Virus record (IMG/VR): IMGVR_UViG_3300030000_000661 | Location: 1-33,979 of that record | Length of the DNA: 33,979 nt | Direction: 5' to 3' (one strand) | DNA from: a virus | Shown here: positions 11,406-31,790 of the stretch, one piece after another | How positions within the stretch are numbered: the stretch's first letter is position 1 | How the letters are laid out: each line of letters starts with the position of its first letter | Translations under genes and position numbers: made by a program | The notes under the pieces: generated by a model | Seen by the model: only the letters and a program-made list of their open reading frames with translations | What the model was told of the DNA's origin: nothing | The model's database searches: none

Positions 11406-11626
11406 GCGCACTCAATACCCAGGTGTCCGGTGACCACTACAAATCCCTGACTATTCAGCCCATTGAGTACATTCACGCAAACAACATCCCTTTCGCCGAG
11501 GGGAGCGTGATCAAGTACGTGACCCGGTGGCGCGACAAGGGAGGCCTGGCTGATCTGGAAAAGGCCAAGCACTTCCTCGAGTTGCTGATTGAGCTCGAAG
11601 AGAAAGCGATGGTTGCACCGGCATGA
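11402..11626 (+). CDS. DUF3310 small protein
   Basis: 74 residues with the DUF3310 signature near the start (VSGDHYKSLTIQPIEYI) and VIKYVTRWRDKGG followed by DLEKAKHFLELLI. The family occurs in many phages; T7 gene 1.7, a nucleotide kinase, carries such a domain, so a role in nucleotide metabolism is possible but unproven here. Four-base overlaps with both P upstream and the recombinase downstream. Confidence 0.8.
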   Translation: MSALNTQVSGDHYKSLTIQPIEYIHANNIPFAEGSVIKYVTRWRDKGGLADLEKAKHFLELLIELEEKAMVAPA

Positions 11627-12951
11627 GCACCAAAATCCAAACTTTGACCGTGAAGCTCTCGGACGCCGAGATTGGGCGAAACGCCAAGCTCGAGCACGTG
11701 CGCGACTTGCGGGATGCCGGGCACCCGGCATTGCACTTTCGGTTCGCAAAAAATCGCACCTGCGGCTCCTGGTACTTGCTCAACAAGCGCCGATGGCACC
11801 GCATCGGCGCCTTCCCTGACCTGAACACCAAGCAGGTGCTCGCGGCCTTGCCTGCGATTCGCCTGCGGGTGGCGGCTGACGGCGCGGCCAGCGTCTCCGG
11901 CTGGGTGACCGTGGGCGAGCTGCTCGACTGGTTTGGCGATCGCATGGCCAAGTCGCGCGCGCTTTCGGAAAAGCGTCGGGCCGCCGGCAAATCAGCGATC
12001 AGCTGCCAGCTCAAGCCGCGCCTGAACGACCTGCTGCTGCGCGACGTCAGCGCGCAGACCCTGGACCAGTTGCTGATGTGGCCGGCCCAGGCCGAACTGT
12101 CGTTGTCCTACGTCCAGCAGCTCTACCGGCTGCTCGCCGTGGCCTTCCGGCAGGCCCGCAAGCTGGACCTGATCCCGGTCAACCCGATGGCGGAGCTCAA
12201 GTTCGTCAACTTCACCACGGCTCGCATCCTGCCCAAGCCTGCGCGGCTGCGGGACGTCCAGTTACCTGAACTGGTGCAGCTATTGGCCGAGCGCTTCTAC
12301 AGTGCACCGGGCGACGCCATGCTGGCCTTGATGATGCTGTGCCATGGCACGCGGATCGGCGAGACGCGACAGGCGCGTTGGGCCGACATTGCTCTGCCGG
12401 AGCGCGAGTGGTTCCTGCCGGCCGATCACACCAAGAGCAAAACCGAGCTGCGGGTGCCGCTGACCGACCAGGTGATTGCGCTGCTGCAGCGCTACCGTGA
12501 TCGCCAGGCCGTCCAGGGCTACGAGGGCCAGTTCCTGTTTCCGTCGCGCCGTGGCAAGCCGCTGAGTGATAACCAGGCCAGCGCGGTGTTCACGCGGCTG
12601 GGGCAGGGCGCCTGGACCAGCCACGACCTGCGCAAGGTGGCCCGCACTGCCTGGACTGACCTGGGCGTCGACGGGCACATCGGCGAGATGCTGCTCAACC
12701 ACTCTCTGGGCAAGATCGCCTCTACCTACATCAACACCCAGGCCAAGGAGCAGCGTCGACTCGCCCTGGTCAAGTGGCACACCTGGTTAGATCAGCGCGG
12801 CTTTCAGGCGATCCATGAGCAGACAGGCGTTAGATCTGAAGATTCGCAAAACCTCGTAGACGCCTTGAATGGCGGGGCCTGCGAGGCATTCCCACAATTT
12901 GTTAAGGGCGAGGTTTTAAAACATGCAGAAACGACAGGGGCCTGGCTTTAA
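11623..12951 (+). CDS. Second tyrosine recombinase, within the replication operon
   Basis: 442 residues. N-terminal DUF4102-like region (HPALHFRFAKNRTCGSWYLL, residues ~35-55), core-binding domain (~85-190), catalytic domain (~205-385). All catalytic residues are visible: Arg ~244 in GTRIGETRQARW, Lys in TKSKTELRVPL, His ~334/Arg ~337 in HDLRK, His in LNHSLGK and Tyr ~368 in STYI. It is coupled to DUF3310 rather than next to an att site, while a separate int/xis pair occupies the left end. It may resolve multimers, invert DNA or be an acquired integrase. The last ~50 residues (IHEQTGVRSEDSQNL onward) are less GC-biased and extend past the family end. Confidence 0.85.
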   Translation: MSTKIQTLTVKLSDAEIGRNAKLEHVRDLRDAGHPALHFRFAKNRTCGSWYLLNKRRWHRIGAFPDLNTKQVLAALPAIRLRVAADGAASVSGWVTVGELLDWFGDRMAKSRALSEKRRAAGKSAISCQLKPRLNDLLLRDVSAQTLDQLLMWPAQAELSLSYVQQLYRLLAVAFRQARKLDLIPVNPMAELKFVNFTTARILPKPARLRDVQLPELVQLLAERFYSAPGDAMLALMMLCHGTRIGETRQARWADIALPEREWFLPADHTKSKTELRVPLTDQVIALLQRYRDRQAVQGYEGQFLFPSRRGKPLSDNQASAVFTRLGQGAWTSHDLRKVARTAWTDLGVDGHIGEMLLNHSLGKIASTYINTQAKEQRRLALVKWHTWLDQRGFQAIHEQTGVRSEDSQNLVDALNGGACEAFPQFVKGEVLKHAETTGAWL

Positions 12952-13704: not shown

Positions 13705-15150
13705 TTAATAACCGGCATAGTCTGGATAGGCAAATAGTCTGCCTGATCGAGCGTCATCTAGCCATTTGAATGCACCTTCAAGGTTGTAAATACCAATGAT
13801 GCTTTCCGCTAATGCTATGTGCTGCAGAGAAAATAGAGATATCAAAATGTTATCAATGGCATTACTTTTGCTGAAGATATGCATGAAGTCATCTTTTAAG
13901 TTGGTGCCGTGAGCCAAATTAGCATTAGCTTGAGCGAGATATATGTCGAAGAGCCTGTCATAATACTCAACAAATTCTCTGTCGCGCGCGAAGTAAAATA
14001 AGGTTTCGATCCCGGCCAGATACTCGGCGTCAACTTCATTAGTAAATGCATCCCATACTTTGTTTTGTGGGGTGCCTCTCGCTATCAGTCTTTCTAGCAA
14101 GCTTTCTCTGTCAAACTTTATTTCAGTGTATGGTGTGTCCTGGTCTTTGCGGAAGTCAGGGTTCTCCTTGAACCACTCACCTATAAATCGCAGCAATTTT
14201 TCTTCTGAAATACCTTTGAGTGGGAGCGGGGAGTTAATCAGTGGAGCGAGATTGTAATGTTTTTTTATGACGTCCACGGCTTTTGAGAAGTCCCTGCTCC
14301 CAAGCCCATACTCTGTTTTGATACGATCCTTCACTGAAGTGAATTCCTCATCTCTCCATTTCTCGATGCGTGGTAGCTCTTTAGCAACTCTAAAGATTTC
14401 TGGGCGAGATAGTTTTTCTGTAAAGGAACCTTGATTGTACTCTGACTGCAACCAGTTATTAAGTTTGTGGAGTGAATCTAGATTTTTTTCAAGCTCGTTA
14501 AACTTTTTCTTCAGGAGAATGAAGTTTATGACGGATACGTCTGTTAAGTGCTTCTGCGAGTCATTGCTAATTGGGTAGCGAAAGGTTTGCCCTGTTGGAT
14601 CAGTTTCTGCAATATCTAAAATGGTTGCTTCTGCTCTTTGGTTTGCGGCTATATATCTTTTGTCGATATTCTCCGATTGTGTTTTGAAGAAGCTCCAAAT
14701 TATGTTGATGTCGTGTGAGCTGGATGAATTGAAGTGAATATTGATTTTTTTGAGTTTGGCGATTTCAATGATTTCATCAATGGCGCCTTTCAGTCTTAAT
14801 TCTACTGAGTGGCGCATATTGAAGCAGACTGGGTAAACAAACTCGTCGACACTGAAGCGAGTGCTTCGATCATTGATAACCAGGTCAATCAGAATGTTTG
14901 CCGCTTTCGAAAAACCCTCCGAATATTCAACATAACTAGGTTGACCGTTGTTACCAACACAGGCGTTCGCCCAGGTGGGTTCTGCTCCACGGAAGGTTGG
15001 ATTTTTGTTAGTCATCAGCCTGGAAATTTCCTTGTTGGGGTCTGAGCCTATGTATCGATGCCATTCTAGGGCGGGTTGTGGGGAGTGCATATCCTCAGTG
15101 GTCGTAAATGAGAAAAATAGCTTTTCCGCGCGGAATAGGTCTGTTTTCAT
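13705..15150 (-). CDS. AT-rich cargo gene, HEPN-like, candidate phage-defence protein
   Basis: 481 residues, leftward, against the late direction, clearly richer in A/T than its neighbours, so probably a separately acquired moron. Residues ~79-152 follow a pattern seen in HEPN-like uncharacterised proteins: a helix, VDEFVYPVCFNMRHSVELRL with Arg113-His114, then SHDINIIW (145-152). The rest is mostly helical (IARGTPQNKVWDAF; FVEYYDRLFDIYLAQ) with no membrane segment. HEPN proteins are often RNases in abortive infection. The site between Q and lysis genes is a known position for lysogen-expressed cargo. Function not established; the fold call rests on memory of the motif. Confidence 0.75.
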   Translation of the reverse strand: MKTDLFRAEKLFFSFTTTEDMHSPQPALEWHRYIGSDPNKEISRLMTNKNPTFRGAEPTWANACVGNNGQPSYVEYSEGFSKAANILIDLVINDRSTRFSVDEFVYPVCFNMRHSVELRLKGAIDEIIEIAKLKKINIHFNSSSSHDINIIWSFFKTQSENIDKRYIAANQRAEATILDIAETDPTGQTFRYPISNDSQKHLTDVSVINFILLKKKFNELEKNLDSLHKLNNWLQSEYNQGSFTEKLSRPEIFRVAKELPRIEKWRDEEFTSVKDRIKTEYGLGSRDFSKAVDVIKKHYNLAPLINSPLPLKGISEEKLLRFIGEWFKENPDFRKDQDTPYTEIKFDRESLLERLIARGTPQNKVWDAFTNEVDAEYLAGIETLFYFARDREFVEYYDRLFDIYLAQANANLAHGTNLKDDFMHIFSKSNAIDNILISLFSLQHIALAESIIGIYNLEGAFKWLDDARSGRLFAYPDYAGY

Positions 15151-15331: not shown

Positions 15332-15652
15332 ATGAACTCCGAGCATCAGGCGCTGACAGACGTGCCCCTATGGTTGTTGGTTTTGTTGAGCATGGCTGGT
15401 CTGTCCGGCGAGATGCTTCGGGCGTCCGGCACTGATCTCGGGTTGCGCCAGATCCTACAGCGAGTCGCGTTGCGTTTTTTAGCCTCAGGGTTGTTGGGTA
15501 TGGCGACGTTGCTCTTAGCCATGGCGCTCTGGAGCAACCTCTACTTGGCCGCAGGTCTTGGTATTGTCATTGCCGTGATTGGTGCTGACGTGGCCGGCGG
15601 GCTCTATACCCAATTTCTGGCCAAGAAGGCGGGTATTCAGCCTGGCAAGTAA
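15332..15652 (+). CDS. Holin
   Basis: 106 residues with three hydrophobic segments: VPLWLLVLLSMAGLSGEML (~11-29), FLASGLLGMATLLLAMALW (~49-67) and YLAAGLGIVIAVIGADVAG (~71-89), and a basic C-terminus. This topology and size fit a class I phage holin, which forms the inner-membrane hole that releases endolysin and starts lysis. GAGG precedes the ATG. It is the first late gene, far from the endolysin/Rz genes at the other end of the operon. Confidence 0.8.
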   Translation: MNSEHQALTDVPLWLLVLLSMAGLSGEMLRASGTDLGLRQILQRVALRFLASGLLGMATLLLAMALWSNLYLAAGLGIVIAVIGADVAGGLYTQFLAKKAGIQPGK

Positions 15653-15667
15653 GGGAGGGGAATTGCC

Positions 15668-16408
15668 ATGATCAATATCAAACTCGATGCCGACAGTGTT
15701 CCGTTAGCCAGAGAGATTTCGGACATCCAGCGTAAGCATCTGCCTTTTGCATTGGTGCTGGCTCAAACCCGGCTTGCACAGCGGGTAAAGCCTGGCGTAC
15801 TGGCCGTAATGAAGCAGCGTCTTGATCGGCCCACCCCTACAACACTGAACAGCCTGTTCATCCAGATGGCGACCAAGACGCGTGGTGCAAAGGTTTACTT
15901 CAAAGATTCCTGGGCCTCGGGCATTCCTGCAGACGCCTATCTGCAACAGGCGGTACAGGGTGGCCACCGTCCTCATAAGCGTTTTGAGAAGGCGCTGATT
16001 GCTAAAGGCCTGATGCGCTCGAGTCAGTACGCGGTGCCGACATCAGCATTCCTCAATCAGTATGGCAACGTATCTCGCGGCACGATGACCCGCATCTTGT
16101 CAGGCCTCGGAGCTGCAGAGACATCCGGCGGCTATCAGGCCAACGCTTCGAGCAGTAAACGTAGCCAGCGCAAGGGCAATGCAAAGCGTTACTTCAGCGG
16201 TGCTGTCGATGGTGAGCGTGGCGTCTGGGAGCGGCGAACGATGGGCAAGGGCAGTGCGGTTCGCCCTGTGTTCCTGTTCACGAATGGCACCCCGGGTTAC
16301 CGCGTGATCTTCCCGTTCTTCAAGATCGCCGAAAACATCGTGAAAGCGCACTACGAGGCCGAATTCACAGCTGCACTAGGTCAGGCGATTGCCACTGCTC
16401 GGCCATGA
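15668..16408 (+). CDS. Phage structural-type protein, possibly tail/neck (gpZ-like)
   Basis: 246 residues, strong GGGAGGGG ribosome site. The N-terminus (SDIQRKHLPFALVLAQTRLAQRV) and later basic beta-rich parts resemble, loosely, lambda minor tail protein Z, which acts in tail completion. It ends with a helix typical of such proteins (HYEAEFTAALGQAIATAR). It sits between holin and terminase rather than among head-tail joining genes. If it completes tails, it is one of the few joining factors left after loss of the capsid block. Assignment tentative. Confidence 0.5.
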   Translation: MINIKLDADSVPLAREISDIQRKHLPFALVLAQTRLAQRVKPGVLAVMKQRLDRPTPTTLNSLFIQMATKTRGAKVYFKDSWASGIPADAYLQQAVQGGHRPHKRFEKALIAKGLMRSSQYAVPTSAFLNQYGNVSRGTMTRILSGLGAAETSGGYQANASSSKRSQRKGNAKRYFSGAVDGERGVWERRTMGKGSAVRPVFLFTNGTPGYRVIFPFFKIAENIVKAHYEAEFTAALGQAIATARP

Positions 16409-16410
16409 CA

Positions 16411-16490
16411 GGCGATCCCGCCCCCCCCCGGGGGCAATCTCAACGGGTCCTCCCGAGGGGGCCGGGCATAGGGGGTAATTCGGGCCCCGC
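16411..16490. other. Candidate cos site: GC-homopolymer tract before the terminase genes
   Basis: A gene-free stretch with C9 (16421-16429) directly followed by G5, then CCCGAGGGGGCC, AGGGGG and GGGCCC within 75 bases. The large terminase subunit is of the cos-cutting lambda type and cos usually lies just upstream of the small subunit, as here. The exact nick positions cannot be read from sequence. Long homopolymers are also error-prone in sequencing. Confidence 0.4.
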
Positions 16491-16533
16491 TTCATCACTA
16501 TGTATGACCCTTTTCCAGAGGTTGGTTGTTGTT

Positions 16534-17085
16534 ATGTCTTCGAAGATCACAACGATCACACGGCAACCATTCTGGCTGAACAAGAAGACCATGGCCGATA
16601 GCCTCGGTATTTCGGTTCAGGCCTTTGACAAATGGGGGGTTCCTCCGGTGGCAAAGATCGGCCGCGAGTCGTTTTATGACGTCCGGTCGGTGCTGGATAA
16701 TCGCCTTCAACACCAAACCGGCAAACAGCAACCTGATGCTGATGAACGCGATCCGCACATTGCTTACAAGATAGATTGCGAGCGACTGCGTCTGACCAAA
16801 GAGCAGGCTGACGCCCAGGCACGTAAAAACCGGATCGGCGACAAGGAGCTGGCTCCGGTCGCTTTCATGACTTTCGCGCTCTCCAAGTTGTCGGCGCAGT
16901 TGGCTGCAACCCTTAACACCATTCCCAAGCTCGTGAAGCGTAAGCACCCCGATATCGCCGTGCGACACCTCGATGCGGTCGAGAACGAAATTGCCGTTAC
17001 GCGTAACGCCGCTATTGGGTTGGCTGATCGTGTGCCGGAGCTTTTGGATGAGTACATCGCCACCTTGGATGAGGTCGCTGGTTGA
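16534..17085 (+). CDS. Terminase small subunit (Nu1-like)
   Basis: 183 residues; start set at the ATG of MSSKITT, behind AGAGG, though ATG 16504 is possible. The N-terminus is a MerR/Nu1-like winged helix (LNKKTMADSLGISVQAFDKW, residues ~14-33), which binds cos DNA in lambda. The helical C-terminus (ALSKLSAQLAATLNTIPKLV) should contact the large subunit. Overlaps the large subunit gene by 17 bases. Confidence 0.8.
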   Translation: MSSKITTITRQPFWLNKKTMADSLGISVQAFDKWGVPPVAKIGRESFYDVRSVLDNRLQHQTGKQQPDADERDPHIAYKIDCERLRLTKEQADAQARKNRIGDKELAPVAFMTFALSKLSAQLAATLNTIPKLVKRKHPDIAVRHLDAVENEIAVTRNAAIGLADRVPELLDEYIATLDEVAG

Positions 17086-19099
17086 CGCTGTCCGGCGCGG
17101 GCTAAAGAGCCTGCACAAAGATGCCCCTATGACGGCTGTCGAGTGGGCCGACGAATATTTCTACATGTCGTCTGAGTCGTCCTACGGCGAAGGCAAATGG
17201 ACGACTGAAGCCTTCCAAGTGCCCTTGCTGAATGCCATGGGTAACGACCTGATCGAAGAGTTGAACCTGCTGAAGTCGGCGCGGGTTGGTTACACCAAGA
17301 TGTTGGTGGCGAACATCGCCTACAAGATCGAACACAAGAAGCGCAGCGTCTGCATGTGGAGTCCGACCGACGACGACGCTAAAGACATCATGAAAAAACA
17401 CGTGGATCCGATGATCCGTGACGTGCCTGTGATCAAGGCGCTGGCGCCCTGGTGCGGAAAGAAACACGGTGATAATACCCAAGAGTCCAAGGTCTTTGAA
17501 AACCGCAAGGTGCTGTGGTGGTTGGGTGGTACAGCCGGCGGTAACTACCGAGAGAAAAGCCCGGATGAAGTGGGGTACGACGAGCTATCGAACTTCGATG
17601 AAGACATTGACGGCGAAGGGTCTCCGACCTTCCTGGGCGATAAGCGTCTCGAGGGTGCGACCTACCCCAAGTCGATTCGCGGTTCCACCCCCAAGTTGGC
17701 TGGCACCTGCCAAATCACTCGGGCCGCTGAGGAGTCTGCCTACCTCATGCGCTTTCACATCCGCTGTCCGCAATGCCGCACCGAACAGACCCTGAAGTGG
17801 GGCGGCAAGGATGATTCGTTTGGCATCAAGTGGCTGAAAGATGAGCGTGGTGAGGTCGTCAAGGCCTGGTATCTGTGCGAGTCCGGTAACGGCTGCACAT
17901 TCGAACATTTCGAGATGGTCGAGGCGTCCAGAGTCGGTCGGTACATCTGCGAAAAGACCGGCATCTGGACGCGTGACAGTATTGAGTGGTTCGAAGCAGA
18001 CGATACACCGATGCGCACGCCGCGCCGGCTCACATTCCACATTTGGACGGTGTATTCGACGTTCACCACCTGGGTAAAGATCGCCGATGAGCGCGTCAAG
18101 GCCGGCAAGGATCGAGGCAAGCTCAAGACCTTTACCAACACCACGTTGGGTGAGGCATGGGAAGAGGACCAGACCGAGAAAGTCGACTGGGAGTTGCTCT
18201 ACGGACGGCGTGAAGTTTACGCCGCCCAAGTGCCGCCGCGCGTAGCAGTGCTGACCGGTTCGATCGACACCCAGGACGACCGATACGAATTGCGTGTTTG
18301 GGGGTGGGGGGCGGGCGAAGAGGCTTGGTTGATTGATCGCCGGATTCTGTACGGCGATCCGGATAGCGCGGTTCTAAAGCGAAAAGTCGGGCTTGAGCTG
18401 CATCGGCAGTACGCCCGCGCAGATGGTGCGGTGATGCGAGTTGAGCGTTGGTGTTGGGACTCCGGCGGCCACCACTCTGATGCTGTCCGTGCCGAAAGCC
18501 GCAAGCATGGCGTGCATTGGGTGATCCCGATTTTCGGGGCCAGCACCTACGGCAAGCCGATTGCGAGCTTCCCGCGGCGCAAGGAAAAGAAGTCCAAAAC
18601 CTACCTCACGGAAATTGGTACCGACAACGCTAAAGAGGTGATCTACAACCGCCTCAAGCTACAGCCGGACGGCAATCGTCCGGTGCCAGGGTTGGTGCAC
18701 TTTCCAGCGGATGACCTCATCTGTGACGGCGACGAGCTGAAGCAGCTAACCAGTGAAAGCAAAAAATGGATCATGGCCCGAGGTCGCCGCGTGCTCCGCT
18801 GGGATGCCAGCAAGAAGCGCAATGAGGCGCTCGACTGCTTTGTGTACGCCTTAGCGGCGCTGCGTATCAGTCAGGAGAAGTTCGGCCTTGATCTTGAGTA
18901 TATGGCCAGCCAAAACCCGGCATCGGGCGTTTGGGAGCTGCCAGACGAGTCGGATGACCCAGATGAGCCGGGCGACCTTGATGATCCACAACTCCCGGCC
19001 GTTGAGCCAGAACCGGCCCTGGTGCCGATCCAACCACAACCAGACCATCAGCCCGCCGCCGGCGGCTGGATTGAATCAGGAGCGAACGCATGGCTGTAA
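17069..19099 (+). CDS. Terminase large subunit, lambda GpA family
   Basis: 676 residues, full length for the family (lambda gpA 641). Packaging ATPase and cos endonuclease. Walker A-like KSARVGYTK at 69-77 (the lambda variant is nearly the same), Walker B-like VGYDEL at 168-173, and nuclease acidic residue Asp400 in GSIDTQDDR. CPQC (233-236) plus Cys270 and Cys276 could bind zinc. The C-terminal ~50 residues are Pro/Asp-rich and probably disordered. Start chosen at MRSLVDAV because the longer reading lies within the small subunit gene. Intact, although the capsid it should fill is not encoded nearby. Confidence 0.95.
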   Translation: MRSLVDAVRRGLKSLHKDAPMTAVEWADEYFYMSSESSYGEGKWTTEAFQVPLLNAMGNDLIEELNLLKSARVGYTKMLVANIAYKIEHKKRSVCMWSPTDDDAKDIMKKHVDPMIRDVPVIKALAPWCGKKHGDNTQESKVFENRKVLWWLGGTAGGNYREKSPDEVGYDELSNFDEDIDGEGSPTFLGDKRLEGATYPKSIRGSTPKLAGTCQITRAAEESAYLMRFHIRCPQCRTEQTLKWGGKDDSFGIKWLKDERGEVVKAWYLCESGNGCTFEHFEMVEASRVGRYICEKTGIWTRDSIEWFEADDTPMRTPRRLTFHIWTVYSTFTTWVKIADERVKAGKDRGKLKTFTNTTLGEAWEEDQTEKVDWELLYGRREVYAAQVPPRVAVLTGSIDTQDDRYELRVWGWGAGEEAWLIDRRILYGDPDSAVLKRKVGLELHRQYARADGAVMRVERWCWDSGGHHSDAVRAESRKHGVHWVIPIFGASTYGKPIASFPRRKEKKSKTYLTEIGTDNAKEVIYNRLKLQPDGNRPVPGLVHFPADDLICDGDELKQLTSESKKWIMARGRRVLRWDASKKRNEALDCFVYALAALRISQEKFGLDLEYMASQNPASGVWELPDESDDPDEPGDLDDPQLPAVEPEPALVPIQPQPDHQPAAGGWIESGANAWL

Positions 19100-19296
19100 C
19101 AGCGCAGGAAATGCTCGAAAAGTACCTGCAAGCCGAAGCGGACGTGCTGGCCGGCAAGGACGTTCAGTTCAATGGCCGTCGTGTTGTCATGGCGGACCTG
19201 CCGGCCATCATCGCAGGCCGAAAAGAGTGGGAGCGCCGAGTAGCTCAATCGCAAAAAGGAGGACGCCCGGGCTACTCCCTGGCGTCGTTTGAATGA
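19090..19296 (+). CDS. Head-completion protein, lambda gpW family
   Basis: 68 residues, overlapping the terminase end by 10 bases and the portal start by four. TAQEMLEKYLQAEADVLAGK, then VQFNGRRVVMADL, match the gpW family, which seals the portal after packaging and makes the platform for tail joining. The order terL, gpW, portal is that of lambda. Retained although no capsid gene follows. Confidence 0.85.
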   Translation: MAVTAQEMLEKYLQAEADVLAGKDVQFNGRRVVMADLPAIIAGRKEWERRVAQSQKGGRPGYSLASFE

Positions 19297-20828
19297 ACCT
19301 GCTGGACAAAGTCCTAGCGCCGCTATTTCCGGGCATGGTGGCCGAGCGGCTGCGTGCGCGTAACGTGATCATGGCGTTTGAAGCCGCCTCTGTGACGCGC
19401 ACGCACAAGGCCAAGAAGCAAACCAAGAGCGCTGATGCGTCGCTGAACAAAACGCTGAAATCATTGCGTGAGCAGTGCCGCAAACTGGACGAAGACCACG
19501 ACATTGTTACGGGGCTTTTTGATCGCCTGGAAGAGCGGGTGGTGGGTGGTCCGGGTATCGCGGTGGAGCCGATTCCGCTGGGTTACGACGGCACGATTCA
19601 CGGGGCGTTTGCGGCCTCGGTCAAGGCTCTGTGGGGTGAATGGTCGCTTAAGCCGGAGACATCCGGTGAGTTGACCCGGCCGCAAATGGAACGGCTCATG
19701 TGCCGCACTTGGCTGCGTGATGGCGAGGGGTTGGCGCAAATGCTTATGGGCAAAGTGCCCGGCTACGAACACTTGCACGGCGTGCCGTTTGCGCTGGAGC
19801 TGCTGGAGCCGGATTACCTGCCCATCGACTACACCGACCTGTCCAAGGGCATCGTCCAAGGGGTGGAGCGCAACGCGTGGCGCCGGAAGCGGGCTTATCA
19901 CCTGTTTAAAGGGCATCCAGGGGATCAGCTCGGCATCTTTGCGCAAAACACCAAGCGTGTGCCGGCCGAGCAGATGATTCACATTGCGCATCGAAAACGC
20001 ATTGGCCAGAACCGTGGCCAGCCGCTGCTGCACGCGGTGTTGATCCGATTGGCGGATATCAAGGATTACGAGGAAAGCGAGCGGGTCGCGGCGCGGATCA
20101 GTGCGGCGCTGGCGATGTACATTAAGAAAGGCACCGGTGAGGACTTTGTGCCTGCTGGCAATGGTGAGAATCGGCCTGAGCGTACATTTCCAATCGCGCC
20201 GGGCATCGTGATCGACACGCTGCTGCCCGGTGAAGACGTCGGGATGATCGAGAGCAACCGCCCAAACCCCTTCCTTGAAGGCTTCCGCAATGGCCAGCTC
20301 AAGGCCGTCGCGGCGGGTACACGCGGCACGTACTCCAGTGTGGCGCGCAGCTATGACGGAACCTATTCGGCGCAGCGTCAGGAGCTGGTCGAGGGGCAGT
20401 TGGGCTACGACCTGCTGCAACACGAATTCATCGACTACTGGTGCCGGCCGGTTTATCGCAAATGGCTCGAAATGGCGATTCTAAGCGGCCAACTGGTTGT
20501 TCCCGCCGATGTCGATCCGCGCACGATTTACGGCGCGTTTTATCAAGGTCCGGTGATGCCCTGGATCAATCCGGTGCATGAGGCCACGGCTTGGAAGCTT
20601 CTGGTTGAGGCCGGCTTTGCAGACGAGGCAGAGGTGGCCCGGTCGCGGCAGCGCAACCCTTCAGAACTCAAGGCGTCGCGCAAGGCGGAAGTCGCCGCGA
20701 ACCGCGAGAGCGGGCTGGTTTTCAGCTCGGACTATTACCACCAAATCTACGGGAAGAATCAGCCCAATGATGACGAAAAACAACGGGCCGCTGATGCGGC
20801 CGCGGGCGTCGATAAGCCCGACGAATAA
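19293..20828 (+). CDS. Portal protein, lambda family
   Basis: 511 residues, normal length for lambda-type portals. Typical segments are present: ALELLEPDYLPIDYTDL, HIAHRKRIGQNRGQPLLHAV (~230-249) and GTYSSVARSYDGTYSAQRQE (~352-371), followed by a C-terminal DDEKQRAADAAAG. Portals form the dodecameric ring through which DNA enters the head and onto which the tail attaches. Nothing suggests decay. In relatives it is followed by a ClpP-like prohead protease, whose first ~70 codons follow here and overlap the portal end. Confidence 0.93.
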   Translation: MNLLDKVLAPLFPGMVAERLRARNVIMAFEAASVTRTHKAKKQTKSADASLNKTLKSLREQCRKLDEDHDIVTGLFDRLEERVVGGPGIAVEPIPLGYDGTIHGAFAASVKALWGEWSLKPETSGELTRPQMERLMCRTWLRDGEGLAQMLMGKVPGYEHLHGVPFALELLEPDYLPIDYTDLSKGIVQGVERNAWRRKRAYHLFKGHPGDQLGIFAQNTKRVPAEQMIHIAHRKRIGQNRGQPLLHAVLIRLADIKDYEESERVAARISAALAMYIKKGTGEDFVPAGNGENRPERTFPIAPGIVIDTLLPGEDVGMIESNRPNPFLEGFRNGQLKAVAAGTRGTYSSVARSYDGTYSAQRQELVEGQLGYDLLQHEFIDYWCRPVYRKWLEMAILSGQLVVPADVDPRTIYGAFYQGPVMPWINPVHEATAWKLLVEAGFADEAEVARSRQRNPSELKASRKAEVAANRESGLVFSSDYYHQIYGKNQPNDDEKQRAADAAAGVDKPDE

Positions 20829-21468
20829 GCCTGAGGAAAGCTGGTATTCCATTCGTGCTGCGTCGCGGGGTGTGGCTGAAGTCATGCTCTATGACGATAT
20901 CGGCGCCTGGGGAATCTCGGCTCGCCAGTTCGCTCGCGATCTGGCGGCGCTCGGTGACGTCTCACAGATCAACCTATCAGACGGCGCCGGCTGGACCAGC
21001 GCCTGGGTGCGCTGGCACAGCCAGGCCGCCGGCAAGGCCCGCCACTGGCGAGCGCCCAGCCTGGGCGAGCAGGGCGCGTTGATCAGCCCCAGTGGAGAGC
21101 CGGCGCAGGGTACGTTTGTCGCTGGCCTGTACGGCAACGCCGGCCCCCAGCCGGATAACCGCGACCACGTCGAGGTCTGGCGCTTTGATGATGGCGGCTC
21201 GCTGGTCTACGACTGGCAGGCCAAGAGCTACACCATCAGCCTGCCCAGCGGCACGGTGAGCATTCAGGTCGGCGGCAGTTTGGCGGTGGTGACGGACAGC
21301 GCCATCACTGGCAAGGCCGACACCATCACCCTGACCGGGAAAATCACCCTCAATGGCGACGTGCAAATCAACGGTGCCAGCCTGCAGCACAACGGCGTAA
21401 ACGTGGGATCGACCCATACCCATATGGGCGTGATGCCAGGCCCTGGGTCAACCGGCGCGCCGCACTAA
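20767..21468 (+). CDS. Deletion fusion: N-terminus of prohead protease joined to baseplate spike V
   Basis: 233 residues. Residues 1-70 (ESWYSIRAAS..., DDIGAWGISARQFARDLAAL, GDVSQINL) are the start of a ClpP-like prohead protease, which should continue LRINSPGGDV with the oxyanion-hole glycines. Instead, at residue 71 (base ~20977) the sequence becomes P2 gpV: DGAGWTSAWVRWHSQAAGKA, PSLGEQ, PSGEP, LYGNA, a beta-helix stalk (DTITLTGKITLNGDVQINGA) and the iron-binding spike tip GSTHTHMGV. P2 gpV has ~35 further residues at its N-terminus, lost here. The protease has no catalytic Ser or His. The frame is open across the joint, so a hybrid spike may be made; whether the OB-fold closes without its first strand is doubtful. 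Uses the protease start, overlapping portal by 62 bases. Confidence 0.85.
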   Translation: MMTKNNGPLMRPRASISPTNKPEESWYSIRAASRGVAEVMLYDDIGAWGISARQFARDLAALGDVSQINLSDGAGWTSAWVRWHSQAAGKARHWRAPSLGEQGALISPSGEPAQGTFVAGLYGNAGPQPDNRDHVEVWRFDDGGSLVYDWQAKSYTISLPSGTVSIQVGGSLAVVTDSAITGKADTITLTGKITLNGDVQINGASLQHNGVNVGSTHTHMGVMPGPGSTGAPH

Positions 21469-21738: not shown

Positions 21739-22065
21739 ATGATCGGAATGGATCGCCGCTCCGGCTTGCCGCTGTCGGGCATCGAGCATGTGCGGCAGTC
21801 CATCGAGGACATCCTGACCACACCGCTCGGCAGCCGGCGCATGCGGCCGGAGTACGGCAGCAAGTTGCGCCGCTTTGTCGATCTGCCGGTGACCGAGGGC
21901 TGGAAAAGTGCGGTGCAGGCCGAGGTCGCTCGGGCGTTAGAGCGCTGGGAACCGCGGCTAAAACTGGAGCGGGTGCGGGTGACGGCGGTGGTGGGTGGCC
22001 AGATCACCTTTCAGCTGACCGGCCAGTACCTGGGTAATAGCGCGATTTTGGAGGTGGCGGCATGA
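21739..22065 (+). CDS. W: Baseplate protein W (gp25-like)
   Basis: 108 residues, the size of P2 gpW and T4 gp25. Conserved segment DRRSGLPLSGIEHVRQSIED, then TPLGSRRMRPEYGSKL (~33-48), the gp25 EPR-type core motif region. Wedge protein that helps start sheath polymerisation on the baseplate. Overlaps J by four bases. Confidence 0.9.
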   Translation: MIGMDRRSGLPLSGIEHVRQSIEDILTTPLGSRRMRPEYGSKLRRFVDLPVTEGWKSAVQAEVARALERWEPRLKLERVRVTAVVGGQITFQLTGQYLGNSAILEVAA

Positions 22066-22943
22066 GCACGCTGGATTTGTCGGCACTGCCGGCGCCGCAG
22101 GTGCTGGAAAGCCTCGACTTTGAGGAGCTGTACCAGGGCAAGCTGAGCACGTTTCGTCTGTACATGGGCGACAACTGGTCCGCCAACCTGGAGAGCGACC
22201 CGGTGGTCAAGCAGCTGGAGCTGGCGGCCTACCGCGATATGCAGCTGCGGGCCCGGGTCAACGATGCGGCCAAGGCCTTGCTGCTGGCCCATGCCAAAGG
22301 CACGGATCTGGATCACCTGGCGGCTAACGTCAGCCTGTCGCGTCTGGTGATTCAGGTAGCGGATCCGCTGGCGGTGCCGCCGGTGGAGGAGGTCAAAGAG
22401 TCGGACGATGCTTTGCGCGAGCGTGTGCAGTTGGCCTATGAAGGCCTGACCACCGCCGGCCCGCGTAACAGCTACATCCTGCATGCGCGCAATGCCTCGG
22501 CCCTGGTCGCGGATGCCTCGGCCGAAAGCCCATCACCGGCGCGCGTGACGGTGACCGTGTTAAGCCTGGACGGCAATGGCACGGCCACCCCGGCGCTGTT
22601 AACGACAGTAGCTGCGGCGCTCAATGATGAGGATGTGCGGCCGCTGGGGGATCGGGTCACGGTGCAAAGCGCCCAGGTGTTGCCGTACCGCATCGATGCG
22701 GTGCTGCACATGAAAGGCCCGGGCCCTGAAAGCGATGCCGCCCTGGCCGAAGCCGAGCGCAAGCTGGCGGCCTGGATCAATCCCCGCAAGCGCCTGGGCG
22801 TCGAGGTTGCACGCTCGGCCATCGATGCGCAGTTGCACGTCGCCGGCGTGGCCCGGGTTGAGCTGGCCAACTGGCAGGACATTGCCCCGACGATGGCTCA
22901 GGCGGCGTTCTGCACGGGCTACAGCGTGACGCTGGGAGACTGA
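22062..22943 (+). CDS. J: Baseplate protein J
   Basis: 293 residues, matching P2 gpJ (302) and the Baseplate_J family. Features: FEELYQGKLSTFRLYMGDNW near the start, KGTDLDHLAANVSLSRLVI (~80-98) and GLTTAGPRNSYILHARNAS (~129-147), the typical AGTxxxY-type core. Forms the wedge of the contractile baseplate with W and I. No sign of decay. Confidence 0.92.
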   Translation: MSTLDLSALPAPQVLESLDFEELYQGKLSTFRLYMGDNWSANLESDPVVKQLELAAYRDMQLRARVNDAAKALLLAHAKGTDLDHLAANVSLSRLVIQVADPLAVPPVEEVKESDDALRERVQLAYEGLTTAGPRNSYILHARNASALVADASAESPSPARVTVTVLSLDGNGTATPALLTTVAAALNDEDVRPLGDRVTVQSAQVLPYRIDAVLHMKGPGPESDAALAEAERKLAAWINPRKRLGVEVARSAIDAQLHVAGVARVELANWQDIAPTMAQAAFCTGYSVTLGD

Positions 22944-22944
22944 C

Positions 22945-23550
22945 ATGAGCAGTCTTCTGCCGATCAACAGCACGCCGCTGGAACGGGCGATTGAGGCGGC
23001 GAACGCGGGTGATACCGAGATTCTGCTGCGCACTCTCTACGACCCAGCCACCTGTCCGGTGCACCTGTTGCCGCAATTGGCCTGGGCCTGGTCGGTGGAT
23101 CGCTGGGACCCGCGCTGGTCCGAGGCGGTCAAGCGCAACGCTATCCGCGCCTCGTTCTTCATCCATGCGCGCAAGGGCACCATCGGCGCGTTGCGTCGGG
23201 TGGTCGAGCCGCTGGGTTACCTGATCGAGGTGGTGGAGTGGTGGCAGACGGTGCCCGAGGGCGAACCCGCCACCTTCGCGCTCAAGGTCGGGGTGCTGGA
23301 CACCGGTATCACCGAACAGATGTACCAGGAGCTGACCCGGCTGATCGACGACGCCAAGCCGGTGACCCGGCACATGACGGGCCTGGCGATCAGCCTGGAG
23401 ACCTCCGGTGTGATCGGCTTCGGCGCCTACGTGGATGAGGGCGAGGTGATCGACGTGTACCCGCCAAACCCGCGCGATATCGAGGTGACCGGCCGCTATG
23501 GCCAGGTCATGTGCATTGATGAAATTGACACCCTGGACGTGTACCCATGA
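22945..23550 (+). CDS. I: Tail protein I
   Basis: 201 residues, in the range of P2 gpI (176). Family signature LPINSTPLERAIEAA at the start, then CPVHLLPQLAWAWSVDRWD (~39-57) and a following Lys/Arg-rich helix. Baseplate wedge component linking J to the tail fibre. It overlaps the fibre gene by four bases. Confidence 0.92.
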   Translation: MSSLLPINSTPLERAIEAANAGDTEILLRTLYDPATCPVHLLPQLAWAWSVDRWDPRWSEAVKRNAIRASFFIHARKGTIGALRRVVEPLGYLIEVVEWWQTVPEGEPATFALKVGVLDTGITEQMYQELTRLIDDAKPVTRHMTGLAISLETSGVIGFGAYVDEGEVIDVYPPNPRDIEVTGRYGQVMCIDEIDTLDVYP

Positions 23551-25457
23551 TCGATTCAAACAGTCAGTTCTTCGCCATCCTCACCGCAGTGGGCGAGGCG
23601 AAACAGGCCAACGCTACGGCGCTCGGCGTGTCCTGGACCTTCAAGGAAATGGGCGTAGGGGATGCCAACAACACCGACCCCATTCCGAACCGGACGCAAA
23701 CCAAGCTGATTAACGAGTGGCGCCGGGCCCCGGTTAACCAGGTGCGCACCGACCCGGCCAACCCGAACGTGGTGATCACCGAGCAGGTGATCCCGGCCGA
23801 CGCCGGTGGACGCTGGATCCGCGAGATTGCCCTCTACGATGCTGACGGCGACATGGTGGCGGTGGCCAACTGCGCGCCGAGCTTCAAGCCCTTGCTGGCC
23901 CAGGGCACCGGCAAAACCCAGATCATCCGCATGAACTTCATAGTGGCCAACACCGCGCAGATCGTGCTCAAGATCGACCCGGCGGTGGTCCTGGCAACCC
24001 GCGAGTACGTCGACAATGCGGTGATCGAAGCGCTGGCGAAGATGGATTTCAAACACTCGGCGCTGGTGGCCACCACCGCCAACATCGCGTTGAACGGGAT
24101 CCTGACCATCGACGATGTGCTGCTGCCGGCCGATGCCCGGGTGCTGGTGAAGAATCAGAGCCAGGCCAAGGACAACGGCTTGTACGTGGTGTCAGCCACG
24201 GGTGTCTGGAAGCGGGCGCAGGATGCCGACAGCAGTCCGGAAGTGACCCCGGGCCTGTTTGTCAGCATCGAGAAGGGCACGGTCAACGGCGACAGCGTCT
24301 GGCAGTTGGTCACGGATGGGCCAATCACCCTGGGCACTACGCCGCTGGCTTTTGAGATGGCCGTAGGCCGTACCGGCATCAGCGCAGGCTCATATGCCAA
24401 TGTCACCGTCGACAAGTACGGCCGGGTGATCGCCGGCACCAACCCGAGCACCCTGGCCGGTCATGGCATCACCGACACCTATACCAAGCCTGAGATCGAA
24501 TCCATCGTAGCGCAGGCGTCGTCGCTGCCTGTCGGCTCTATGGTGGCATTTCCCAAGGCCAGTGTGCCGCCTGGGTTCCTTGAGATTGATGGCAGTGTGA
24601 AGATTATTGCTGCCTACCCTGATCTCGCTACTTACCTCGGCACCACGTTCAACAAGGGCGATGAGGGCGCGGGCAACTTCCGATTGCCGGACTCTAGGGG
24701 TGAGTTCCTGCGCGGCTGGGACCATGGGCGCGGTGTTGATGCTGGGCGAGCGTTGAGTACAAATCAGGTGGACGCGTTCCAGGGCCACCTCCAAAGCCCT
24801 CCAGCGGGTATGACAGGCTTTTTAACCATCGGCTCCGGCGGTTGGGCGCAAGTTGCGGGTAGCGGCACCATTCTCTCTCCGGCGACAGGCGGGCCAGTAA
24901 CAGACGGGGTTAACGGTGTACCTCGCACAGCGAACGAAACCCGTCCGCGCAACCTGGCGGTGATGTGGTGCATCAAGGCTTGGAACGCTCCCATCAATCA
25001 GGGGAATATCGACGTCGCAGCTCTTGCTCCATTGGCCGCTCAGGCCACCGAGGCCAATCAAGGAACGGCGAAAATTGCGACTCAGGCGCAGATGCTTGCG
25101 GGCACAGATGACGCGTTGATCGTCACACCTAAGAAACTTCGTTGGGGTTTTTCCATCGGTCTGGCGAGCAATGGCTACATCGCCTTTCCTTCGTGGCTGG
25201 GTGGTCTGATTGTTCAGTGGGGCAGGGGTACAAACGCAACAGCCGGCCCAGTTACTGTGTTGTTCCCTATCGCATTCACAACTTCCAAATTTTTCGATCA
25301 CGCAGTGCCGATCGTAGCTTCTCCGACTGGCTGGGATACATCGCAAACTGTTGGGGATACGTCTAGAACACAGTCAACATTCAATAGGCGTGGCGGTGGC
25401 TCTTCTACTAACTCACCAACAAATTTTGATGTTTATTGGTTTTCGATTGGGTACTGA
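23547..25457 (+). CDS. H: Tail fibre (P2 gpH-like) with collar and gp53-like tip
   Basis: 636 residues. Residues ~1-155 are the conserved baseplate-binding domain (DUF3751-like: FFAILTAVGEAKQANATALG, WRRAPVNQVRTDP). Next come a repeat-like stalk (LVATTANIALNGILTIDDVL) and a tail-collar domain at ~330-405 (GSMVAFPKASVPPGFLEIDG, FRLPDSRGEFLRGWDHGRG). The tip at ~530-636 resembles the gp53-like C-terminal domain (IVQWGRGTNATAGPVTVLFP), which should set host range. The gene becomes more A/T-rich toward its 3' end, as expected of exchanged receptor-binding modules. Intact. Confidence 0.92.
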   Translation: MIDSNSQFFAILTAVGEAKQANATALGVSWTFKEMGVGDANNTDPIPNRTQTKLINEWRRAPVNQVRTDPANPNVVITEQVIPADAGGRWIREIALYDADGDMVAVANCAPSFKPLLAQGTGKTQIIRMNFIVANTAQIVLKIDPAVVLATREYVDNAVIEALAKMDFKHSALVATTANIALNGILTIDDVLLPADARVLVKNQSQAKDNGLYVVSATGVWKRAQDADSSPEVTPGLFVSIEKGTVNGDSVWQLVTDGPITLGTTPLAFEMAVGRTGISAGSYANVTVDKYGRVIAGTNPSTLAGHGITDTYTKPEIESIVAQASSLPVGSMVAFPKASVPPGFLEIDGSVKIIAAYPDLATYLGTTFNKGDEGAGNFRLPDSRGEFLRGWDHGRGVDAGRALSTNQVDAFQGHLQSPPAGMTGFLTIGSGGWAQVAGSGTILSPATGGPVTDGVNGVPRTANETRPRNLAVMWCIKAWNAPINQGNIDVAALAPLAAQATEANQGTAKIATQAQMLAGTDDALIVTPKKLRWGFSIGLASNGYIAFPSWLGGLIVQWGRGTNATAGPVTVLFPIAFTTSKFFDHAVPIVASPTGWDTSQTVGDTSRTQSTFNRRGGGSSTNSPTNFDVYWFSIGY

Positions 25458-25999: not shown

Positions 26000-27166
26000 A
26001 TGAGCGGTTTCTTTCACGGCGTTACTGTCACGAATGTGGACACCGGCGCGCGCATCATTGCGTTGCCGACGTCCTCGATCATCGGCCTGGTGGATACCTT
26101 CACCGAGGCCCCGGCCTTCACGGCCAAGGCCAACGACCTGGTGCTGATCACCAACGAGCGCGAAGCCATTGCGGCCTGGGGTCCGGACGCGGCCATCACC
26201 AAGGCCTGCCAAGCCATTTACCTGCGCGCCAAGGCGGTGATCGTGGCGTGCGGCGTGGCCAAGGTGGCGGATGCGGCGCAGCAGACCTCGGCCATCATCG
26301 GCGGCGTGCTGGCCAGCGGTAAGCGTACCGGCCTGCAGGCGCTGCTCGATGGCAAGAGTCGCTTCAACGCTCAGCCGCGCTTGCTGGTGACGCCCAAGCA
26401 CAGCTCGACCCTGCCGGTCGGTATGGCCCTGGTCGCCCTGGCGGACAAGCTGCGTGGCCTGGCCATCCTCGACGGCCCCAACACCACCGACGAGGCGGTG
26501 ATGGAGTACGCCAAGAACTTCGGCGCCAAGCGCGCCTTTATGGTCGACCCAGGGATTCAGTACTGGGACACCGTGGCCAGCGCGACCCTCGACACATCGG
26601 CCTCGGCCTGGGTCGCCGGCCTGTTTGCCTGGACCGACAACGAGTACGGATTCTGGGCCTCGCCGTCGAACAAGGATTTCGTCGGCGTCACCGGTACCAC
26701 GCGCGCCATTGAGTTTCTGGACGGTGACGAGACCTGCCGGGCCAACCTGCTCAACAACGCCAATATCACCACGATCATTCGTGACTCGGGCTTTCGCCTG
26801 TGGGGCAACCGCACGTTGGCGAGCGATCCAAAGTGGGCGTTTGTCACCCGGGTGCGAACCATGGACATCGTCATGGACGCGATCCTCTTCGGCCACAAGT
26901 GGGCGGTCGACCGCTCGATCACGGCGACCTATGTCAAGGACGTCACCGAAGGCCTACAGGCGTTCATGCGCGACCTGAGGAACCAGGGCGCGATCATCAA
27001 TTTCGAGGTGTATGCCGACACCGAGCTCAACACGGCCAGCCAGCTGGAGCAGGGCAAGGTGTACTGGAACATCCGTTTTACCGATGTACCGCCGGCCGAA
27101 AACCCCAATTTCCGGGTCGAGGTCACCAACCAGTGGTTGACCGAAGTCCTCGACCAAGCCGCTTAA
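26000..27166 (+). CDS. FI: Tail sheath protein FI
   Basis: 388 residues, like P2 FI (396). Begins SGFFHGVTVTNVDTGARII. Characteristic strings: SIIGLVDTF, FVGVTGTTRAIEF, then NANITTIIRDSGFRLWGNRT (~250-270) and RTMDIVMDAI. It forms the contractile outer sheath. It is first of the FI-FII-E-T-U-X-D block. No truncation. Confidence 0.95.
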   Translation: MSGFFHGVTVTNVDTGARIIALPTSSIIGLVDTFTEAPAFTAKANDLVLITNEREAIAAWGPDAAITKACQAIYLRAKAVIVACGVAKVADAAQQTSAIIGGVLASGKRTGLQALLDGKSRFNAQPRLLVTPKHSSTLPVGMALVALADKLRGLAILDGPNTTDEAVMEYAKNFGAKRAFMVDPGIQYWDTVASATLDTSASAWVAGLFAWTDNEYGFWASPSNKDFVGVTGTTRAIEFLDGDETCRANLLNNANITTIIRDSGFRLWGNRTLASDPKWAFVTRVRTMDIVMDAILFGHKWAVDRSITATYVKDVTEGLQAFMRDLRNQGAIINFEVYADTELNTASQLEQGKVYWNIRFTDVPPAENPNFRVEVTNQWLTEVLDQAA

Positions 27167-27178
27167 GGAGCCGCAGCA

Positions 27179-27688
27179 ATGGCAATGATTCCCGAAACCC
27201 TGGCGAACATGAACCTGTTCGCCGATGGCGTCAGCTTCCAAGGCGACGTGCCCAGCCTGACCCTGCCCAAGCTCACGCTCAAGACCGAGGAGCACCGCGC
27301 CGGCGGCATGGACGTGCCGGTGGAGCTGGACATGGGCATGGAAAAACAAGAGGCCGGGTTTACCACCACGGGCGTGCGCCGCGAGTCGCTCAAGTTCTTC
27401 GGCCTGGCTGACGGCACCTCGTTCAACGGTGTGTTCCGTGGAGCCTTCAAGGGCCTCAAGGGCAAGGTCACCCCGGTGATTGTGACCCTGCGCGGGCTGC
27501 TCAAAGAGATCGACATGGGCGACTGGAAGGCCGGCGACAAGGCCGAGATCAAGCACAACGTGGCCTTGACCTACTACAAGCTCGAGGTCGACGGACGCCT
27601 GATCTATGAAATCGATGCGCTGGGTATGAAGCGTGTCATCAACGGCGTGGACCAACTCGCCGCCCAACGTTCGGCCCTGGGCCTTTAA
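27179..27688 (+). CDS. FII: Tail tube protein FII
   Basis: 169 residues (P2 FII is 172). MIPETLANMNLFADGVSFQG at the start, KTEEHRAGGMDVPVELDMGM in the middle (~38-57) and a C-terminal YKLEVDGRLIYEIDALG match the family. It polymerises into the inner tube driven through the target membrane on contraction. Twelve bases after FI, with AAGGAG. Confidence 0.95.
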   Translation: MAMIPETLANMNLFADGVSFQGDVPSLTLPKLTLKTEEHRAGGMDVPVELDMGMEKQEAGFTTTGVRRESLKFFGLADGTSFNGVFRGAFKGLKGKVTPVIVTLRGLLKEIDMGDWKAGDKAEIKHNVALTYYKLEVDGRLIYEIDALGMKRVINGVDQLAAQRSALGL

Positions 27689-28144: not shown

Positions 28145-30694
28145 ATGGCGAGCAAACTGGCATTAGGGTTGGTGATCGGCGGCGCCGTCAGTTCGACGGT
28201 AGGCGCTGCCTTCAAGACGGTTGAAAACCGGATCAAGAAGCTGGAAGAAACAGGCAACCGGGCCAAGGTGCTGAAAAACACCATCGGCGAAACCATGCGC
28301 CTGCGTGATGAATGGAAGAAGGCCTACGAGACCGGCTCCGCCTCGGCGTCCGGTCTGCTGCGTAAGCTCGAGGGCAATCTGGATTGCCTGCGCAAGCAGG
28401 GGGTGCAGGTCCACAAACTGCGCCAGGAATACCAGGCACTCGGACGGGTCGCCAAAGGTGCAGATCTGCAGCTTAAGGGGCATGAGCAAATCCGCCAGGG
28501 CAAGGACAGCCTCAAGTCAGGGATCGGCCAGGCAGTGGCCGGTGTGGGGGCAGTAGCGATTCCGACCAAGATCAGTGCTGACTATCAGGCGATCATCCGT
28601 GACATCGCGATCAAGGCGGACGTGGCCAACAAGCCGCAAGAAGCCCAGATGACCCGCACCATCATTCAGACCTCGCAAGACACTGGGATGGGCCGCAACG
28701 ATGTAGCCGACCTGGTGAATCAGTTGGTCGGTGCCGGCATGGAGCTGGACAAGGCGCTGTCCTACGCACCAGTGGCGGCCAAGTTCGCCATTGGGCAGGG
28801 CGCAACCGGGGTCGACACCGCGAACATGATCCAGGCGCTGCAGCAGAACGCCAAGATCAGTGACCCCAAAGTCATGGAGAAAGCCCTGGAGGCTATCGCC
28901 CTGCAGGGCCAGGCGGGCAGCTTTGAGGCGGCCGACATGGCGCGCTGGTTTCCGCAGATGCTGGCCGGCATGGAGAAGATCGGCATCACTGGGCTGGACT
29001 CGGTGAGCCAACTGGGCTCGATGCTCCAGGTGCAGATGAAGACTGCCGGCGGGTCCGATGAGGCGGCCAACAACCTCAAGAACTGGATGGAGAAAATCGG
29101 CTCCGGAGACGTGGTGAAGTCCTACAAGGAGGCGGGCATTGATTACCAAGCCTCGCTGAACACCGGTATTCAGGGGGGCATGTCGACCCTGGAGTCCAGC
29201 TTTGCGCTGGCCCAGCGCTACGTCGAAGCCACCAACCCGGAGCAGGCCAAGAAGATGGCCGAAGCGACGGCCAAGATCAGCAAGGAGACAGATCCCGCCA
29301 AGGCCAAGGCCATGCTGGAGTCCCTGGAGAAGGCCCTGCGCACCGGTGACATTTTTGCCGACATGCAGGTCAAGGCTGCACTCACTGCCTTCTCTCAGAA
29401 CAAGGCGCTGTATGAGCAGCTGAAAGCCGAATCGAAGAACGCCACCGGCATCCTCGACAAGAACCTGGCCGAGCGGCGCGAGTCGTCATCGCAGATGTGG
29501 GCCGAGACGGCGAATGCCTTGAACGACAGCATGCGCGCCGTGGGTGATGCCTTGCGGCCGGTGACGGACTCCGTAGCCCAGGGCATCACCGTGGTGGCCA
29601 AGTCGCTGACCGGTCTCACAGAGAAGGCGCCGCCGTTGGTGCTGGGCCTGACCGCCCTGGGCGCCGGGCTGATCGCGCTGAAAAACGTGGTGGCCGCGTT
29701 CAAGATCGGCAAGGGCCTTCTCAACGTGGCCCGGGGCTCGATGATGGGCAACCCGAACGTGATTCAGCGGGTGTTTGTAACCAACGCTGCCGGCATGGGC
29801 GGCGGTGATTACGGCGCCGATGGCGGCAAGGACAAGAAGGGCCGCAAGGGCGGCCGCACTGGGCGGGGTGGTCGCGGCCTGCGCGGTGGCATTAGCGGCA
29901 TCGGCCAGGCGCTGAAAAGCGTCATCACCGGTGGCGGGGTGGGTGGTGCAGTCAAAGGCGCGGCGTCGGCCGGGATTGGCAGTGCGGCGCTTAAGGGCAT
30001 CGGCTCGATGGCCAAGGGCGCTGCACCGTTGATCAAGGGCGGCGCCGTGTTGTCGGTGCTGGGTGCCGGCATCCAGGTGGCGGACACCTACCAGAACGCC
30101 ACCACTCGGGATGAAAAAGCTGAGGGCTATGGCGAGGCGGCGGGGAACCTGGCCGGCGCTGCAGCGGGGGCGGCAGCAGGTGCTGCAATCGGTTCGGTGG
30201 TGCCGGTGATCGGCACGGTGATTGGCGGCCTAATCGGCGGCGCTCTGGGCGCCTGGGGCGGATCTGCTGCAGGCGGTGTCCTGAGCAAAAAAATGTTCGG
30301 CAGCGATGAGGCGCTTAAGTCGATGCCGGCTGCTGGGCCGCTGATGATGACCAACGCCGGCAAGGACATCCCGCCCGTCCTGGGCGACATCGCCAAATCA
30401 TTCAAGACCGGCCAGACCGATCCGGCGATGGGGCAGGTGGTGCGGTCGATGGCCCTGGCGTCGCCCACTGTGGCAGCGCCGCCGATGATCAAGGCACCGG
30501 AGCCACCCAAGCCCGCGCCGCCCAAGGTTGAGCAGCAGCTTACCTTCGCACCGCATATGCCCATCGTGGTGCATGGCGATGTGAAAGACCCTGCGCAATT
30601 GGCGCGGGAGATTGAGCCGCAACTGCGCCGGATGTTCGACGAGTTCAACCGCCAGGCGGCGGCCCGTCAGCTGTCCGACGCACCACATCTTTAA
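28145..30694 (+). CDS. T: Tape measure protein T
   Basis: 849 residues, close to P2 gpT (815). Starts ASKLALGLVIGGAVSSTVGA. Residues ~20-120 form a coiled coil, the middle is helical (MELDKALSYAPVAAKFAIGQ; MARWFPQMLAGMEKIGI), and there are hydrophobic segments at ~495-520 (PLVLGLTALGAGLIALKNVV) and ~665-715 (Gly/Ala-rich). The C-terminus is Pro-rich, ending VHGDVKDPAQLAREIEPQL. Sets tail length and probably enters the target envelope. Intact. Confidence 0.95.
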   Translation: MASKLALGLVIGGAVSSTVGAAFKTVENRIKKLEETGNRAKVLKNTIGETMRLRDEWKKAYETGSASASGLLRKLEGNLDCLRKQGVQVHKLRQEYQALGRVAKGADLQLKGHEQIRQGKDSLKSGIGQAVAGVGAVAIPTKISADYQAIIRDIAIKADVANKPQEAQMTRTIIQTSQDTGMGRNDVADLVNQLVGAGMELDKALSYAPVAAKFAIGQGATGVDTANMIQALQQNAKISDPKVMEKALEAIALQGQAGSFEAADMARWFPQMLAGMEKIGITGLDSVSQLGSMLQVQMKTAGGSDEAANNLKNWMEKIGSGDVVKSYKEAGIDYQASLNTGIQGGMSTLESSFALAQRYVEATNPEQAKKMAEATAKISKETDPAKAKAMLESLEKALRTGDIFADMQVKAALTAFSQNKALYEQLKAESKNATGILDKNLAERRESSSQMWAETANALNDSMRAVGDALRPVTDSVAQGITVVAKSLTGLTEKAPPLVLGLTALGAGLIALKNVVAAFKIGKGLLNVARGSMMGNPNVIQRVFVTNAAGMGGGDYGADGGKDKKGRKGGRTGRGGRGLRGGISGIGQALKSVITGGGVGGAVKGAASAGIGSAALKGIGSMAKGAAPLIKGGAVLSVLGAGIQVADTYQNATTRDEKAEGYGEAAGNLAGAAAGAAAGAAIGSVVPVIGTVIGGLIGGALGAWGGSAAGGVLSKKMFGSDEALKSMPAAGPLMMTNAGKDIPPVLGDIAKSFKTGQTDPAMGQVVRSMALASPTVAAPPMIKAPEPPKPAPPKVEQQLTFAPHMPIVVHGDVKDPAQLAREIEPQLRRMFDEFNRQAAARQLSDAPHL

Positions 30695-31549: not shown

Positions 31550-31730
31550 CGGGGATCTGCTCGACACCCTCTGTCATCAGTATTACGGCCACCTGAATGG
31601 CTGTGTCGAAGCGGTGCTGGATGCCAACCAGGGCCTAGCCGACGAGCCCCAACCGTTCCGGGCCGGGGTGTTGATCGTGCTGCCAGATCTGCAGAGCCAG
31701 GCCGAGGCCACGGTGCAGCTCTGGGATTGA
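31524..31730 (+). CDS. X: Tail protein X
   Basis: 68 residues, matching P2 gpX (67) and the Phage_tail_X family: SSGDLLDTLCHQYYGHLNG, then VLDANQGLADEPQPFRAGV, then VLPDL. It has the character of a LysM-like peptidoglycan-binding fold. Small hub component between U and D. The start overlaps U in another frame. Confidence 0.9.
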   Translation: MATTCRTSSGDLLDTLCHQYYGHLNGCVEAVLDANQGLADEPQPFRAGVLIVLPDLQSQAEATVQLWD

Positions 31731-31748
31731 TGCCCGCGCTACCTATAG

Positions 31749-31785
31749 ACCCCGCCGAGTGCGGGGTTTTCCATTTCTGGAGCTT
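31749..31785 (+). promoter_or_regulatory. Hairpin plus ribosome-site module before gene D
   Basis: ACCCCGC/GCGGGGT stem with CGAGT loop and TTT, then CATTTCTGGAGCTT (31772-31785), identical over 14 bases to the module before the sheath gene. The hairpin core CCGCCGAGNGCGG is shared with 21499-21510. Confidence 0.65.
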
Positions 31786-31790
31786 GAACA

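Follow-up and report, generated by a model that had tools for sequence, protein, structure and literature searches.

The window analyzed here, 33,979 bp long, makes up an entire IMG/VR virus record, which ends within or at prophage genes. Its order runs from a left-end integrase through a replication module, terminase, portal and a contractile-tail module to lysis genes. The integrase is of the tyrosine type (1-1140, minus strand; PF00589 with a lambda-type arm-binding domain), and a weak phage-repressor match lies at 8480-8938. On the plus strand follow a holin-like gene (15332-15652; PHROG 3897, which has no named function; it shares 39% identity with the putative holin of tailocin L010), a minor tail protein gene (15668-16408; PHROG 1924), the small and large terminase subunits (16405-17085 and 16973-19099; PHROGs 57 and 15), a gpW-like head-tail adaptor (19090-19296; PHROG 118) and a portal protein of the lambda family (19293-20828; PF05136, PHROG 21). 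Further along the same strand are the baseplate genes W, J and I (21739-23550; PHROGs 43, 4226/6 and 48), a tail fiber (23547-25457; PHROG 327), the tail sheath and tail tube (26000-27688; PHROG 23 and PF04985), the tape measure protein (28145-30694; PHROG 794), the tail genes U, X and D (30704-32837; PHROGs 76, 46 and 52), and an endolysin with an Rz spanin (32862-33979; PHROGs 181 and 2466). Beyond the portal, the gpW-like adaptor and 70 residues of a protease, no head protein was detected in the window.

Between the portal and the baseplate genes lies an open reading frame of 233 aa (20767-21468, plus strand), in which the first 70 residues of a ClpP-type prohead protease (20767-20976) are joined in frame to the baseplate spike protein gpV from its residue 34 (20977-21468). 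The product reads MMTKNNGPLM...DVSQINL up to the joint and SDGAGWTSAW...STGAPH after it. The protease part is 98.6-100% identical to the protease N-termini of the related loci L082-L088, and residues 20-70 match PHROG 133, head maturation protease (E=3.5e-17). From residue ~73 the product matches gpV, through PHROG 9992 (E=6.2e-17), Pfam Phage_base_V and a beta-helix trimerization domain, with PF04717 (positions 22-75), PF21930 and a weak PF18946 in this part. The spike part thus consists of an OB domain that misses the first ~20 positions of the profile, a beta-helix and a weak apex motif, whereas PF04717 is matched over positions 2-75 in the intact gpV proteins that were tested, which include one tailocin protein; an intact gpV relative also matches the phage baseplate protein 4S37 (E=1.6e-61). 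An earlier note on this DNA, made from its letters only, had read the frame as a fusion of a protease N-terminus to gpV, and the profile matches together with the breakpoint mapping bear this out. The 3' end of the portal gene overlaps both the start codon of the frame and a possible ribosome site. With the frame open and the protease start region kept, the hybrid may be translated, an in-frame outcome being expected by chance in about one-third of such joints. The earlier note had suggested that the fusion be modeled for closure of the OB fold. No closed OB fold was seen in an AlphaFold model (mean pLDDT 50.6), to which little weight is given in view of a shallow alignment and the lack of an intact gpV model as control; it hardly counts for or against a defective element. 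A Pseudomonas host is probable, because the fusion protein has 79 of its 80 best genome relatives in that genus.

The two sides of the joint have different nearest relatives. On the left, the terminase, portal and protease start are closest to L084 and L082 (87-88% DNA identity). These belong, with L086 and L089, to a group of intact Pseudomonas prophages with an A-type head, which show the same gene order and 84-88% DNA identity over this region. However, they carry an extra 3.2 kb with capsid, connector and collar genes, and the tail genes of L084 and L082 are just ~74% identical to those of the window. On the right, gpV and the tail genes are closest to the prophage L004 and the partial L005 (94-97% DNA identity), but L004 has a full gpV and a collar gene, and it differs in the type of its portal, protease, capsid and connectors, a head type here called B. 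Except for copies of the joint itself, none of the fetched loci closely resembles the window both left and right of the joint. The matches of left-side relatives end at ~20972-20976 and those of right-side relatives begin at 20975-20992; the relatives of the two sides share just 1-2 bp (T/A) at an illegitimate joint placed at 20975-20977. Because the nearest phage lineages differ between the two sides, the joint would have arisen either through one non-homologous crossover between two phages or through a later deletion that removed the module boundary in an intact mosaic. The deletion proposed in the earlier note therefore holds as the loss of a segment of 3.2 kb, but need not have been internal to a single phage.

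That the data are metagenomic, and that the nearest relatives differ between the two sides as they would in a chimeric contig, could suggest that the joint was made during assembly. However, the exact joint, over 30 bases, recurs in L002, L003 and L160 (L160 being listed together with L242), each from another metagenome. L003 differs from the window at 1 base in 7,723, and the full contig of L160 shows 1 mismatch in 16,217 bp. Moreover, the 1-2 bp common to the relatives of the two sides is far below any assembly k-mer. Because of the three further contigs an assembly collapse, named in the earlier note as grounds for rejecting the deletion, is excluded, and an assembly artefact is very unlikely. 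A scan of genome contigs with the degenerate pattern QINLSDGAGW gave no match, and no sequenced isolate with the joint was found. The other copies of the joint are practically identical to the window, leaving no divergence by which selection after the deletion could be gauged. L002 follows the window except in a part of the fiber (L002 5147-6429, window 23621-24903), where it is 100% identical to L005. The L002 fiber is 6% divergent from that of the window, and the switch to L005 identity occurs at 23,621, after a 152-bp stretch identical in both. This contig was considered as a sign of evolution after the deletion, but it carries little weight, as recombination and a chimeric contig are indistinguishable in it.

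The missing segment was sized by comparison with related loci. Approximately 55 of them carry both sides, separated by 3.18-3.46 kb, or by 5.3 kb in three where the left match ended early; against L084, the stretch missing from the window is 3,208 nt. In L084, this stretch encodes the remainder of a protease/major-capsid protein, a decoration protein, Hc1 for head closure, a PHROG 1072 member and gpV residues 1-33. The loss of a capsid module, guessed in the earlier note at roughly 3-4 kb, is thus confirmed by alignment with intact relatives. The ~55 loci with both sides all contain this interval, and no second, independent capsid deletion was found among them. The two head types differ in their gene structure, with the prohead protease and the major capsid protein forming one fused gene in the A type (L084 11286-13553 and relatives) and being encoded separately in the B type (L004).

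Contrary to the earlier note, in which every other late gene was considered intact, the tail terminator or collar gene has also been lost. In relatives, the gene directly upstream of gpV belongs to PHROG 1072, which has no named function in PHROG. With a profile built from 56 homologues, a single solved protein was hit, the R2-pyocin collar PA0615 (E=1.4e-47), and structural matches of an AlphaFold model of the protein (mean pLDDT 87) are the collar of pyocin R2, the terminator of phage Mu and lambda gpU. PHROG 1072 (L004:5553-6095, L010:4463-4981) can therefore be named a tail terminator/collar protein, homologous to PA0615. No collar homologue was found in the window by a six-frame profile search, in which the positive controls L004, L010 and L084 were recovered. 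Among the related loci with gpV, 199 have sufficient sequence upstream of it, and 198 of these carry the gene; the 199 are the best-ranked loci in the searches, include some duplicates from overlapping contigs and contain 182 distinct gpV sequences. The sole exception, L177 (P. wadenswilerensis), has no collar gene upstream of gpV and carries head genes on the other strand; it is possibly a rearranged prophage. Mu and SPO1, which are myophages, form longer tails when the tail terminator is lost, and their tubes protrude at the wrong end upon contraction (PMC11784142). Because the element has no collar gene and its spike has a truncated OB domain, normal tails are unlikely, and the idea in the earlier note that it could make tails is not supported.

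Altogether, the element is very probably a recently broken, defective Pseudomonas prophage formed by a non-homologous join. Its integrase, repressor and replication genes are present and essential virion genes are gone, as in cryptic prophages in general, which are recognizable prophages minus an essential module lost through deletion or recombination; it differs from these by a single exact in-frame fusion of two modules, very recent in look. The protease start would have come from a phage with an A-type head, and gpV from codon 34 onward from one with an L004-like tail. The genes in between, for the protease/major capsid protein, decoration protein, head closure and collar/tail terminator, are lost, as are the first 33 spike residues, while the integration, replication, terminase, portal, tail and lysis genes are kept. 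DNA packaging by the element alone would be impossible, and an inability to form infectious particles would follow from the capsid loss unless this is complemented. Tails would be uncapped, and the spike would be poorly seated as the start of its OB domain is gone; induction would therefore be expected to lyse the cell but to yield neither plaques nor normal tailocin particles. The gene losses, the fusion and the recurrence of the joint can be read directly from the aligned sequences. Against a defective element it can be argued that the frame across the joint is open and the protease start kept, so that a hybrid spike may be made, and that near-identical copies in several metagenomes indicate an element that persists, although a spreading host clone would explain these equally well.

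Of the two options given in the earlier note, a decaying prophage and an early tailocin, the former is the better one. An early-stage tailocin, whose headless contractile tails would kill relatives with the hybrid protein as spike, agrees with the lack of capsid genes and with the open frames for sheath, tube, tape measure, baseplate, fiber and lysis proteins. Moreover, the tail family of the window has also been domesticated as mutS-linked tailocins (L010, L161-L169), L010 having the order mutS, repressor, holin, collar, gpV. Among the related loci, 37 have no detectable head genes; the tail module lies beside mutS and/or a PrtR-like repressor in 34 of these, the other three not being classified further. 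The gene order in L010 fits the R-tailocin site described between mutS and cinA/recA in P. protegens CHA0 and relatives (PMC7815802). However, all 37 keep the collar gene that was lost here, and the gpV N-terminus has been lost too, whereas the OB profile starts at position 2 in the intact gpV proteins tested. The absence of terminase and integrase is among the criteria for an R-type tailocin (PMC13075995), yet both terminase subunits, the portal and the integrase are present in the window, together with replication genes, and the PrtR-like repressor of L010 has no match there at E<=1e-5. Pseudomonas R-type tailocins (mutS/cinA; R2 pyocin) resemble the element in having no capsid genes and in having lysis genes and homologous gpV, sheath and neighboring tail genes, but they retain the collar/tail terminator and the full spike and lack terminase, portal and integrase, which is the reverse of the situation here. 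Further marks of R-type tailocins are regulation of the PrtN/PrtR type and a fixed place in the chromosome, at mutS/cinA or trpE/trpG. The tail is also incomplete, with no collar and a gpV lacking residues 1-33. Because terminase, portal and integrase have been kept while the collar and part of the spike have been lost, the element does not qualify as a tailocin, though its tail genes are of a tailocin family, and an early stage toward one is very unlikely.

The capsid loss could also be compensated from outside. A co-resident intact phage might supply head, collar and spike in trans and package the genome, allowing a satellite-like spread. The terminase, portal, integrase and replication frames are open, complementation of the missing proteins in trans is conceivable, and intact relatives of both types (L083, L084, L004, L005) occur in contigs whose sample numbers are near those of the headless copies. 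However, there is no evidence of transfer, the near-identical copies in different samples agree with a clonally spreading host, and no interference or capsid-remodeling gene of the satellite kind was recognized among the PHROG and Pfam matches, so that dependence on a helper is improbable. A capsid-less, satellite-like parasite that is alive with its own terminase, portal and tail genes, with the hybrid spike being tolerated or interfering with the helper, is likewise given a very small chance.

Phage mosaicism is often attributed to illegitimate recombination, the products of which are mostly junk and soon lost. The defective prophage described here looks like one such failed product caught in nature, with one exact and fresh joint present in several metagenomes. 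In practice, missing capsid genes alone are insufficient to call a prophage a tailocin. The collar gene upstream of gpV is informative in this respect, being kept in every tailocin-like locus examined of this tail family and gone in the element.

Other genes of the window may be mentioned. Between the holin-like gene and a Q-like antiterminator lies a 481-aa gene (13705-15150, minus strand) for which PHROGs, Pfam and PADLOC gave no match; its region is 87% identical in L084. The replication module contains a second tyrosine recombinase besides the left-end integrase (11623-12951, plus strand, 442 aa, PF00589), in a region showing 81-87% DNA identity across several relatives. Two adjacent genes on the minus strand (7106-8499) form a candidate defense pair, matching the PADLOC models PDC-M63B (E=2.8e-147) and PDC-M63A (DUF6932, E=4.8e-42).
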